NCBI GenBank assembly: GCA_902729315.2
Contig: LR746271.1
Coordinates: forward strand, 2,936,001-3,000,000
DNA from: Spirodela intermedia
Lineage: Eukaryota > Streptophyta > Magnoliopsida > Alismatales > Araceae
Direction: 5' to 3'
DNA: 64,000 bases
The notes beneath the pieces were generated by a model. It saw only the letters and a program-made list of their open reading frames with translations, had not been told where the DNA came from and did not search any database. A program made the translations under genes and the position numbers. How positions within the stretch are numbered: the stretch's first letter is position 1; each line of letters begins with the position of its first letter. Positions 32,701-38,700 of this stretch are shown piece after piece.

Positions 32701-35700
32701 ATGATACATTGATATAAATACCTATCAATGAACATCATTTATATTTTACTATTAGTAATCAGAATGATAATGAGTTGAAACGTTGGGAATTTCATTGGGC
32801 ATAGTAATATGAATAATAAGTTTGAGAAGAAATATGTAGAAGAAGATATTATAAATTTACATTCTCATTTATTGGTTGTGAAGAAGCTCATGTTTATACT
32901 GAAGGAAGATGACCAGTCTCATCATCACAATATTGCTAGAATGCAATCCACTATTAGTGAAAAATTACGTGATGTTATTATTTACAATGAAAGTAGTAAA
33001 AATTATGTTTCTGCTGTCGTGAGGGTTTTATAAATAAACCCTGTACTTTCATATTGGCAGATATGCCCTGAATACTTGGAATCATGTACTCTCAAGGGTA
33101 TAATATAATACTGGACCCCATCTGTCTTGTAAAACAGATTCTTGTTTTTTGTTGGAAATAGAGAAAAAACCTTATCACAAAGGACGGAGGGGAGAACGGC
33201 AGAAACCGCCTCAAGATTCATTCAACTGTAACCCCCATTATATAGGGAGTAACGATACACAACTTTTACCAAAACACCCTCAACTAATTACACTATTTCC
33301 CTACGACCTAAAACTTCCAACACCCCCCCTCAAGATGAACTTTGAAAAATTCATCCTGACTTGTTGGCGATGACAAAGATCTGTTGTTGCAGCAACTCTC
33401 CCTTTGATGGTAATCACAGATGACTGCCACTGAGGTTGTGGATTCGCCAGCACCTTTGGCTCCTCTGATGTTGTCATGCCCCAAAGACAGCTCACTTGCT
33501 GCCCTTGTACACTTGCTGTCCAGATTCTTTGAGAGATTCCAAAAAACTGGTTTGTCCGCTGCGTTTTACTGAGTTTTATACCAAGACCTTTAGGAGGAGC
33601 ATTGTAGGTGGACGACCTTTTGTTTTGCTTGATAAAGATTCAGTATCAGTGCTCAAGCCAAACTAACCAGTGAGCTATGGACATCAAGGTCAGAATGGGC
33701 CATATCCCAGTGCAGAAGAGGCTGAGAATCAAATTCTTCTCTTCTCACAGGATGCCAAGCAGTGTCCTCTTGTAGCATGTTCGTCTTGGCATGGTGTTGA
33801 TCATGCTTAAATCGCCATGGTTCATAAGGATATATGAGGGGCAAGAACGCCAAGTTCCAACAATATCTTCCACTAATTTATTGCGCGAAAATGACTTGTG
33901 AGCGCAGTCATGGCCTATCACAAAAAACCCTGTCACTGCTGTGCCAGTCCATGCCCAAGCCAGAGGGAGAAGATACCATGGAGATTTAGAAATCATAAAA
34001 ATCCCCAATGCATAAGAGGTGACTGACATCAAGACGGATTTCCAAGCTTCACATCATGACTCTCCATTTCACAATATTGCCTGACCTGAGTAACAGTTGC
34101 ATTCTCCTTGTTTCCAAGAGAGATAGCTTCATCAAAGGCAAAAAAACAGATCAAATGCACTTGTGCAGATACCTTCTTCATCAAGATAGGAAGCATACTC
34201 AGACACAAGTTTTGATAAAAGTTTCAGTGTCTCCAGATCTTCAAGAATGTTGCTCTGCTTGTTTGTTACGAGTATTAGAGAGCTTCAATCGGCTGGTAGA
34301 CATAGCATACACTTTCCATCTCAACAAAGGTATGCTGCTTTCCAGTACCAACAAGCTTCAGAAATGCTGCGAGTAGGCCCTCTATCCTTATTCGAGCCAT
34401 ATCCACAAACTGCCTTGAGACAAGTGCTTTCCCAGACTAGACTTGCCTATGATGGAAGCCGCGAGGACAACCATCTTGGAAATCTGCATAGTGTCAAAAT
34501 CTGACGCAAAGACTCTCAGCTATTACAATTGATTTGATGATGGGGCTTAGCTCTCAGGAGAGGTGCATCTCAGCACCCCTCCCACCGATCGAGTAATGAG
34601 CTCGCAGAGGAACTGGAAGGTGAAGACCATTTCGACGAAAGTAGAGGTGAGCAGACAACACCAGAAAAAATAGACTATAGCAATGTGAACTGTGGAGAAC
34701 TTTGGTCACCAGACTAGGGAAGACATAGAACTAATGCTGAATAGAAGGAGACAAACTAAGGAACATGGAGTACGACACTGGATAGACCTAGATATTTATT
34801 CAGCCTCTAGACAGAAGGCTTGATGCAGACAGAAATGACGGCAATGAATTTGAAGATGTCGTTGACAAACCTGCTACTGATGAACTCAAATATACTGTCA
34901 AATGACAGATGAAGATCAGTGCTCTCTCGTCGTAGAACTGCCTCGCCGGCAAAGAACCTCGTCGGAAGAGGAGATGACAGTGAACTCGTCGTCCTAGATT
35001 AGAGGACTGACGAAAGTATAACCGCTCTAAATGGCGGAAAGAAAACCTGCTCGAAATGGCAGGATATCACGCCTTTAAACGGCGGAAAGATAACATGCCT
35101 CCAATGGCGCAATAAGTGCATCAAGATGACGCCAGAAAGAAACTCGGCAGAGGCGGAAGGCCTCGCCGCAAAGACACTCGGCAGAGGCAGAGTGCCTCGT
35201 CGGAAAGATACTCAGCAGAGACGGAATGCCTCGCCGGAAAGATACTCGGCAGAGGCGTAAGGCCTCGCCGGAAGGATACTCGGCAGAGGTGGAAGGCCTC
35301 GCCGAACAAAGAGGGGTTTGAAACCCTAACCTGTAACCTGTCTGTCGCCAGATGTTAGTGGTGGCGTCGACGCTCCCCTAGACAAGCGACGTCGAGCAGA
35401 ACCGACGCGGAACAGAGCTGGCAGCAGCAGCAGTGACGCTCTCTCAGGTAGGAGACGCCAAACAGAGGCCGCAGCAACAGTGGTGGAGGCGATGGCACTC
35501 CCCCAGACAGAAGTTGGACAGAGCGGACGAACCTTAGCGGAACAAACCCGCTCTGATACCATGTTGGAAATAGAGAAAAAACCCCGTCACGAAGGACGGA
35601 GGGGAGAACGGCAGAAACCGCCTCAAGATTCATGACTGTAACCCCATTATATAGGGAGTAACGGTACACAACTTTTACCAAAACACCCTCAACTAATTAT

Positions 35701-38700
35701 GTATCGTAGGGAAATAATGTAATTAGTTGAGAGTGTTTTGGTAAAGTTGTGTATCATTACTCCCTATATAATGAGGGTTACAGTTGAATGAATCTTGAGG
35801 TGGTTTCCGCCGTTCTCCCCTCCATCCTTTGTGACGAGATTTTTTCTCTATTTCCAACATTTTTTATTCAATAAAGTTCTTTCTTCCTCTCCAAATGTGT
35901 TGCGGGATCTCCAGCATACTAGATTGAGGACTACCATTCTACATTCAACTATGGTTAAAAAATTAGGACTAAAGATTGAGAGGCACCCTCATATTTTTAA
36001 TATTGGGTTGATAAAAAAGAACTTTGAAATAAATATTTCATAAACTTATTTGTTAAAATATTCAGTTGGTAAAAAATATTTTGAAGTTCAATGTGATTTA
36101 GTTGACATGAGTACCTGTCACATGATTTTAGAAAGGTCTTGGCGGTTTGACATTGATGCCACATTTCATTACAAGAAGAATCACTATTTATTTTATAGAA
36201 CTGGTGAGAAAATGATTTTATGCCCAATGAAGGAGAGTGATTTCTATGTCAGTTGAAAATAATGTTATGTCAGTTCAAAATAAGGAAGATTTTAGAAAAA
36301 TTTAGAAAAAAATATAAGAACATATCAGTGTTCAAACTTCATATGCGAGTGATCAACAATTACCAAATGCTTTTTTAACTCTTATATTATTTTAGATTCG
36401 TATTACTATGACCCTTTGTGACACTGGAGAACATAATGATTCAGTTCCAATAACAAGCCTACCTGACTTTCAATATGAATTTTGAAAAGAATAGAAATTC
36501 ACATGATATAAGATTTTTTTATGAAAAGGTTTAAAAGACATTACGAATCCATGGGCATTACATGTTGGAAAGAGAGAGTATGGTTTTTATTATCCAGTTC
36601 TGGATGATATGTTTGGCATAGTATCTATAGATCCAAATATTTCTCAAAAATTGACTCAGACAGTAGTTCTCTTCAAATCAAGATCTGTTCATGTGAGAGA
36701 TGGAATTTTTTTTCTCAAACAATTGCATGCTTTTTTCAAATCATTTGCATTGTTTGCCTTGTCTAATATGAGGATGATGAGCCTAATGAATTTCTATATC
36801 AAAAAGTATTTTGTCTCTTGTTTCAGTTATACATTCGGTTACAAAGGTCTAGAAGAACATATGTTTTATTTGAAAGAGGTTTTGAGAGTTTTACAGCAGA
36901 ATCAGCTACACGTAAATTTTCAAAAATTTAACTTCATCACTGGAAATATGATTTTTTCGGGATCAACCCAAAGAATTTTACCAAATTGTTTTTAGAAGGC
37001 TCCCAAAATTGGCCATCAATCTGGTGCATAGTTTTTATATATTGAACCATCTGTAGCATAAATTTCTGAAAAATTCTGCTTCTAGCATCATATCTATTAC
37101 TGAATGTATGAAGAAAGAAAATCTCAGTTGGACAGAAGCATCAATAAGAAGATTTGATCTCTGTAAGCGATTTGAACTTTCCAAGAGATTTTATCCATTG
37201 TCACTCCCAAACTGAGGTTATAAATGAGACGCTATGCCGTTTTGATTCATTCCATTTCAGAAGATAAATCAGGAGAGTAGGATTTGACCTTGGACTTTGG
37301 TAACATGTCGCATCATTTCAATCATACAACTTCAAGAAGTCGTCCTTCACTCAGTTACCAGAATGATTTGGTAGGATTAATCAGAAACATGAAGAAAATG
37401 TTTTTGAAGGCAATTATTTGATCATTATAAACTTGCAAATATACAGATTTCAGTTGGAAGCTATAACGAGGAGTTAAGGCCGATGATCCTATTTGTGAAC
37501 CTCTATGTGTCTCATCTTGATAATTATGATGAGAGTATGATGTTAGACATCACTTCCAAAAGAGAGAATGGTGAAAAGTTTTTGTGGGCCAGACGTTCCG
37601 AAAGCTTGAAGGATGAGGTGGCCCAAAATCAGATTTGGCCTATAAGAAAATCGTGAGAAATGCTTTAGAGATTAGTTTAAGTTAATTTTTCTCTTTTGGT
37701 ACACTTTAAATCTGTTTTACAGCATTATTTTTAAGCGTTTTGATTTTTTTTTAAAAGTACCATTAAAACAGTTTGATTTTGTTAAAGGTATTTAACAGAA
37801 ATTCGGCCTATTTAAACCCTTACGCGTTGTAAATCCGGAGGCATTTTGAGTTGGTACGAATTCTACTTGTTTGAGGTTTCCCCTCTCTATGCTTGTGGAT
37901 TCAAGGCAATATTGTGATCTCTGTGGATTCAAGGGTTGTCCCATCAAGTCCTTGTGGATTGAAGAATTAATGTTTCTATGTTCTATCTTGTGGATTCAAG
38001 AACGAATTTTCTTTTTCATGCAACTCCCACTGAGTCACCTTCACTGTGTCTTGTCACAATTTTTTGTCAAATAATCTAAAGGAAAACAAGCTGTCAGATG
38101 GAAGTCAAACTCTCGAAACGTCATGATAAAAAAGTGCCCTCTCTCTTTCTTCCCCAGGTGTTGCCTAGGAGTACTAACTTACGGTTTTGGGTCCAAAAAG
38201 ACACTCCTTGAAGACTTTGCAACCTCATCGTTGACCAATCTTGGGGCGGTCGTCATAAACGGATATCTTCCATCAGTCAACCTGAAGCAGGTCACAACCT
38301 CTTATCTTTTCGTTCAGTTGGGTACACTTTTCCCCTGAGATGGATCTTCTGCCGCAGGTTGTGCTTGCTTTAGCAGAGCTCTGGTGGGCCCAGTCCCACG
38401 GCAGGCGGAGGAGCTCAGCTAGGGAGCCTTCTGGCGCGCAATCCATGGAAGATCTCATCTCTTCCCTGGACGAAAAGCCCACAAAAGATGTGGAGTCCTT
38501 CGTGTGCCTGGTCGTCCACAACATCGACGGCCCCGCCCTGCGGGACACTGAGTCCCAGCGATATCTGGGACGAATTGCTGCTTGCTCTGCCGTCCGGATG
38601 ATTGCGTCTGTTGATCATGTCAACGCCCCCCTCCGTCAGTACTTCTAGCAACTCCACTAATGATGTTGTTGTTGATGAGTAGAGAGAGAGAGAGTGAAGA

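Follow-up and report, generated by a model that had tools for sequence, protein, structure and literature searches.

How does a small element that encodes no enzymes of its own come to carry spliced pieces of two unrelated host genes, one set inside the other? The question is raised by a long terminal repeat (LTR) element in a 64,000-nucleotide stretch of the Spirodela intermedia genome (assembly GCA_902729315.2, contig LR746271.1, positions 2,936,001 to 3,000,000), referred to here as the window. The element, of the non-autonomous LTR type, lies on the minus strand at window positions 33150-35859 with its 5' end at the right, and it holds parts of a delta-COP and of a FAD6-like desaturase transcript. 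It belongs to a family that also includes a second chimeric copy on contig C16, cargo-free copies, and copies loaded with a third host gene. Very probably, the cargo was acquired by repeated template switching onto spliced host messenger RNAs (mRNAs) during reverse transcription, with the assistance of a helper element, and the chimera transposed afterwards.

A desaturase segment inside a delta-COP copy

Element (el) coordinates run from the 5' end of the element, with el 1 at window position 35859. In element sense, a family leader extends to el 1385 and is followed by delta-COP, FAD6, delta-COP again, a filler and the 3' part common to the family (Table 1, in which delta-COP exons are numbered from the exon ending with the start codon). 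The whole cargo has the sense of the element, and within it the delta-COP pieces keep transcript order. The donors are separate, intron-bearing genes, delta-COP on contig C18 (minus strand) and the FAD6-like gene on C14; cargo blocks match donor exons at 87-100% identity, and donor introns are absent from the cargo.

A preliminary description of this locus, made from the sequence alone, had delta-COP fused directly to a central FAD6 segment. The intronless state and the two histidine boxes that it reported are present, but FAD6 sits inside the delta-COP complementary DNA (cDNA): only two host pieces had been recognized, and the third segment, 33527-33663, from later delta-COP exons, had been missed. 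Assuming one intron between, the delta-COP stretch that was skipped amounts to 91 + 122 = 213 nt, in place of which stands a FAD6 patch of about 395 nt. Two simpler arrangements are ruled out. FAD6 does not simply follow delta-COP, since delta-COP resumes behind it, and a fused host gene was not the origin, since the donors are separate and have introns on C18 and C14; alignment to the host genes, which the preliminary description had proposed as a check, showed the exons separated by introns and no fused gene locus.

The gene names have different footings. The minus-strand open reading frame (ORF) at 33745-34053 reads HDCAH and HDQHH, which we take to be desaturase histidine boxes. The ORF with the FAD6 piece matches PF00487 at E 1.3e-4 with 22.3 bits, below the 29.7-bit cut-off, and its NCBIfam matches all fall far below cut-off; beside this desaturase match, we presume the name FAD6 from the resemblance of the sequence as read. 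For delta-COP, scans of the pieces against Pfam and NCBIfam gave no match and the name rests on PDB matches; the 112-residue piece of the C16 copy matches coatomer subunit delta at E 3.7e-37.

The junctions can be read nucleotide by nucleotide. At the entry junction, empty copies such as L013, L017 and L023 read GATCTCCAAG followed by CAGA, while the 5' untranslated region (UTR) of delta-COP reads GATCTCCAAG followed by ATG; the 10-mer is unchanged in the C16 copy, and in the window copy a single base of it was altered later. The second junction, from delta-COP to FAD6, had been placed at 34045/34046 and is instead a 4-nt overlap at 34054-34057, where the two reading frames agree. At the third junction, where FAD6 returns to delta-COP, 2 nt are common, followed by a mismatch and 4 more common nucleotides; the FAD6 side lies just past an exon join and the delta-COP side within an exon. 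The delta-COP breakpoints at both delta-COP/FAD6 junctions fall within exons. The first 29 nt of the filler, searched with up to 3 mismatches, were found in the assembly only in the two chimeric copies.

The cargo moved after capture

The second chimeric copy (C16:2879661-2882367, L009) repeats these pieces with the same junctions; 983 of its 1059 columns aligned with the window copy (93%) are identical. Flanks of about 1.1-1.5 kb per side were compared among five copies, namely the window copy, L009 and the three with methionine synthase described below (E up to 1e-5, simple repeats masked); none matched the flanks of another copy. The same junctions in unrelated flanks indicate that the cargo moved after capture. 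The second locus by which the preliminary description proposed to judge mobility therefore exists, with the expected delta-COP/FAD6 junction; a target site duplication (TSD) of its own, also expected, is not readable there.

Divergence (K) between cargo and donors is 0.028 for the window copy and 0.045 for the C16 copy, and that between the two copies is 0.038; these values are compatible with one capture followed by spread. For the LTR pair of the window copy the value is 0.046 in one alignment and 0.068 in another. With the rice rate of 1.3e-8 changes per site per year, the window insertion would date back roughly 2 million years. Both copies are frameshifted: the window copy reads for 28 residues beyond the captured start codon before it meets a stop, the C16 copy for 112. 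The earlier proposal that the element is a shuffling vehicle for exons thus stands for DNA and not at the protein level.

A family with a short slot

That the element represents a family, a possibility raised earlier, was confirmed in the 136-Mb assembly, in which LTRs and internal parts like those of the window copy are found at many loci. The internal region gave at least 113 matches (best 40 of 69 candidates scored) and the LTR at least 41 (best 40 of 135). With all 33 of 33 candidates scored, the 172-bp 3' internal part gave 47 matches, which place it, whole or partial, at 33 loci; the 312 bp that precede the cargo position, with 26 of 26 candidates scored, were found at 26. A pattern of polypurine tract (PPT) plus LTR start had 36 genome matches at up to 3 mismatches; a control pattern had none.

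The interval between these two internal parts, here called the slot, was measurable at the 23 places having both flanks. It spans 40-262 bp at 19 of them (median 133) and 980-1166 bp at the other four, on C16, C12 and C3 and in the window. The sizes were taken uncorrected from match to match, and some of the matches end before the flank does; a single duplicated segment contributes two of the 19. On C5 there is a fifth loaded copy, in which cargo and 5' flank are present; its 3' flank was not found.

In its architecture the family is that of an LTR retrotransposon: copies have two direct LTRs with TG...CA ends (in L013, L016 and L017 both cover all 173 positions; in the window the 5' LTR is truncated), a primer binding site (PBS) beside the 5' LTR and the PPT beside the 3' LTR. 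Target sites were read by eye at 21 loci. Exact 5-bp repeats abut both LTRs at four (the window, L013, L016 and L024) and are found at three more if an altered LTR end is allowed (L011, L015 and L021); the remaining 14 are inexact or unreadable. A single LTR between exact 5-bp repeats, as expected for solo LTRs, is present at 9 of 30 LTR loci. The TSD of the family thus has a fixed length of 5 bp. Intronless host exons in several copies place the family among gene-capturing LTR elements. Cargo-free copies with full-length or near full-length LTRs range from about 1.4 kb (L017) to 2.3 kb (L013), compared with 2.7 kb for the window copy. Terminal-repeat retrotransposons in miniature (TRIMs) have LTRs of about 100-250 bp and internal regions of about 100-300 bp; the LTR of this family fits, and its internal part is far too long.

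Two observations concern individual loci. One of the nine solo-like LTR loci (L045) has internal family sequence nearby; a reading of its middle part by eye, made with no profile scan, recognized no host gene. On contig C3, positions 1754-6801 of L025 and 24-5078 of L026 form a 5-kb inverted duplication of 99.6% identity, and by this likeness the two family copies are probably one insertion.

A second cargo in the same slot

The copies on C12 (L011), C3 (L012) and C5 (L010) carry a piece of cobalamin-independent methionine synthase. The frame of L011 (read in L041) matches PDB entry 1u1h (E 2.4e-99) and PF08267 (E 7.5e-65). This cargo joins six exon blocks of an intron-bearing gene, C10:4548064-4549943 (89-97% in L012). 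Relative to the chimeric cargo, it starts about 56 bp further into the slot and stops about 35 bp sooner; with these different endpoints, the capture of methionine synthase was a separate event. L011 has GTTCC on both sides, the left one 4 bases off its truncated LTR, and lacks about 165 bp of the cargo present in L012. At the cargo start of L011 and L012, about 22 nt are nearly repeated just downstream (by eye), as if the polymerase had slipped back.

In a tree built from the 300 bases before the slot plus the 3' flank, the three methionine synthase copies cluster together (support 97/89). The window copy has a gap within the 330 bases before the slot, and a tree that spanned it showed a long branch for this copy. 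The tree does not resolve the two chimeric copies, and the common descent of the chimera therefore rests on the shared junctions.

How the slot may have been loaded

LTR elements make their minus strand by reverse transcription from the 3' end of the element. From the spliced segments and shared junctions, we infer switching at the RNA level, co-packaging, a helper and the following order of steps. The helper, probably a Ty1/copia element, would supply proteins to the family, and spliced host mRNAs would be packaged with the element RNA. During minus-strand synthesis, reverse transcriptase would (i) switch from the element to delta-COP mRNA at a point just upstream of the 3' internal part, (ii) rejoin the element at the 10-nt microhomology beside the delta-COP start codon, and (iii) in the same or a later round, pass from delta-COP to FAD6 mRNA and back to delta-COP. 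The chimera would then have transposed, giving the copies on C8 (the window) and C16, and a separate event would have brought spliced methionine synthase into the same slot of a sister lineage, from which three copies derive. The repeated template switching of the preliminary description is supported as an interpretation.

The position of the slot may matter here. The enzyme would reach it soon after the PPT and the 172-bp 3' part, with the 1.1-kb leader and its PBS coming next. Switching out in the slot and back before the leader would keep the replication sequences, whereas chimeras lacking leader or PPT would have no descendants. In this way two captures at one place would be accounted for without a special capture signal. 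A bolder version, tentative and in our judgment rather unlikely, gives the family a genuine slot for cargo, about 130 bp long and set between the PPT region and a leader that is essential. Reverse transcriptase would repeatedly leave and rejoin the element template there, transcripts would be loaded and then patched piecewise, and the family would be a modular transducer of the retroviral style, evolving through switches out and back.

Candidates for the helper were sought through RVT_2 (best 150 of 1872 candidates scored). RVT_2 matches are present in long open frames of up to 1533 codons, and one of them, on C14, is 6.5 kb from a PPT, past it rather than upstream of it. Together with the PPT/LTR pattern, these searches linked no copia partner with matching LTR, PBS and PPT.

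Several observations weigh against template switching followed by transposition. Within 6 kb upstream of the listed PPT sites, no match among the 150 scored RVT_2 candidates was seen by eye. The microhomology of the third junction is weak, and the best ungapped match of the filler to the delta-COP, FAD6 and methionine synthase donor stretches is 18 of 32. The flank tree does not separate the two chimeric copies from two empty ones, and label shuffles score as low in 98 and 110 of 500 cases, with only five labelled rows. Finally, the TSD of the window copy is a homopolymer, and in the C16 copy the 3' LTR stops at position 117 of 173 and the TSD cannot be read.

Other origins of the cargo

There are three alternatives to switching during reverse transcription. 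The first is capture at the DNA level, in which a resident element was broken in the slot, end joining or strand invasion inserted host cDNA as filler, and the product transposed. Microhomology and the 32-nt filler fit this origin too, as does the fall of both captures in one short slot. However, one slot would have to be broken and filled with sense cDNA on two separate occasions, in the chimera with delta-COP, FAD6 and delta-COP in transcript order, and the delta-COP pieces look like a single cDNA with an internal patch. We consider capture by repair improbable.

The second is that the chimera began as one host chimeric transcript or processed pseudogene and was captured once. Although the agreement of the delta-COP and FAD6 frames at the second junction speaks for it, a search with 2228 bases (best 40 of 69 candidates) showed no such locus apart from the two element copies, its matches being the donors, family members and a second delta-COP-like locus on C7 (about 80%), and trans-splicing does not explain delta-COP breakpoints that lie inside exons. 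A single capture of this kind is very improbable. The third, an assembly artefact or chance similarity, can practically be dismissed on the strong evidence of two loci on different contigs that have the same cargo junctions and substitutions of their own (K 0.038).

Structure of the window copy

The LTR, PBS of the tRNA-Met type, PPT and 5-bp repeat of the preliminary description were all found, and its extent for the element stands; to be added are the minus strand and a truncated 5' LTR with an inverted LTR piece outside it. The LTRs (33150-33322 and 35562-35699) agree at 94% in one block of 72 nt and at 98% in another of 58 nt. The PBS presumably fits initiator tRNA-Met. The TTTTT repeat, read on the plus strand, sits among T/A runs and is by itself weak evidence of a TSD. 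As had been reported, there is no gag or pol: the longest stop-to-stop frame within the element is 117 aa, and gag-pol therefore does not fit. The lack of a pol coding region is judged by frame length, some of the frames having been profile-scanned.

Table 1. Features of the window copy, in window coordinates
Feature	Position	Strand	Remarks
5-bp flanking repeat TTTTT, element 3' side	33145-33149		Read by eye; weak TSD, T run
3' LTR, 173 bp, TGTTGGAA...TTCCAACA	33150-33322	-	LTR alignment
PPT TTGAGGGGGGG	33323-33333	-	G-rich; adjoins 3' LTR
Family 3' internal part	33323-33494	-	Common to cargo-free copies; 33 of 33 candidates scored
Filler, 32 nt	33495-33526	-	Same filler in both chimeric copies
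Captured delta-COP, second piece: parts of later exons 5 and 6, spliced	33527-33663	-	C18:2213207-2213255 (100%), C18:2212319-2212416 (89%)
Captured FAD6-like desaturase: three exons (first partial) and first bases of fourth, joined	33662-34057	-	Two histidine boxes; donor C14:4310016-4310989, 87-98% by exon
delta-COP/FAD6 junction, 4-nt microhomology ATGA	34054-34057	-	Inside exon of both donors
Captured delta-COP, first piece: start codon, exons 2 and 3, part of 4, spliced	34054-34474	-	Donor C18:2214273-2215767, 94-100%
Entry junction, 10-nt microhomology GATCTCCAAG	34475-34484	-	Leader and delta-COP 5' UTR; one substitution in window copy
Family 5' internal part (PBS and leader)	34475-35561	-	Common to cargo-free copies
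34-bp tandem repeats	35130-35304	-	Within family leader
PBS TGGTATCAGAGC (minus strand)	35550-35561	-	Initiator tRNA-Met type; abuts 5' LTR
Truncated 5' LTR, 138 bp	35562-35699	-	Lacks about first 32 bp
Inverted LTR piece, 156 bp	35704-35859	+	LTR positions 17-173; at element 5' end
5-bp flanking repeat TTTTT, element 5' side	35860-35864		Read by eye

The inverted LTR piece is about as distant from the LTRs of the window copy as from other LTRs of the family. It could stem from self-priming during reverse transcription or from a second insertion, between which these distances do not decide. About 65-75 bp that are present in L009, L010, L011, L012, L016 and L017 are missing from the window copy near 34782 (el 1074-1078). 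Beyond the element, flank 35997-36256 partly resembles what we take to be an old Ty3/gypsy protease remnant; a Pfam scan of the ORF at 36044-36253 gave no match.

Comparison with known systems

The kind of capture described here is already known; what is unusual is the legibility of the junctions and two separate captures in one slot. The nearest relatives are gene-carrying TRIMs, which have exon-only fragments, 5-bp TSDs and transposition after capture (Gao et al. 2016, PMC4717578), and among which the soybean GmaRetroS15 carries pieces of three host genes (PMC4717578). They resemble the present family as small non-autonomous LTR elements with exon-only cargo that moved after capture, but they measure 1,172-1,449 bp against 2.7 kb for the window copy, and the portions of that paper available to us describe neither an out-and-back switch between transcripts nor a second capture in the same slot. 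Maize Bs1 is likewise an LTR element with segments of three host genes; unlike here, where both chimeric copies are frameshifted, its chimeric gene is transcribed and translated, according to the sections seen of a review (PMC13317346).

A survey reports 672 genes captured by LTR elements in rice and 1,343 in sorghum, some later expanded (PMC3726574); the capture is the same, treated genome-wide and, in the text accessible to us, without junction anatomy. Template switching itself is described between LTR element RNAs in Triticeae (PMC1950507, as excerpted). In Magnaporthe, double template jumps fuse three transcript copies into tripartite chimeras (PMC2104539, likewise in excerpt); there, the machinery is that of a long interspersed nuclear element (LINE) and three different transcripts stand in a row, whereas here one transcript is patched inside by another. 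In the parts of the open-access literature covered, we met no LTR element in which one transcript is patched out and back inside another, nor any LTR family with two independent captures in a single slot, and titles and abstract openings describe no delta-COP/FAD6 chimera.

Plant LTR elements that capture genes have been recorded largely in genome-wide lists. In the present case, one genome holds the donors, the captured pieces, the junctions, the unloaded state and two independently loaded lineages, and the switching can therefore be read base by base. The delta-COP-FAD6-delta-COP order shows a captured cDNA itself patched by a second transcript, and by such internal patching multi-gene chimeras can arise without recourse to a new insertion site.

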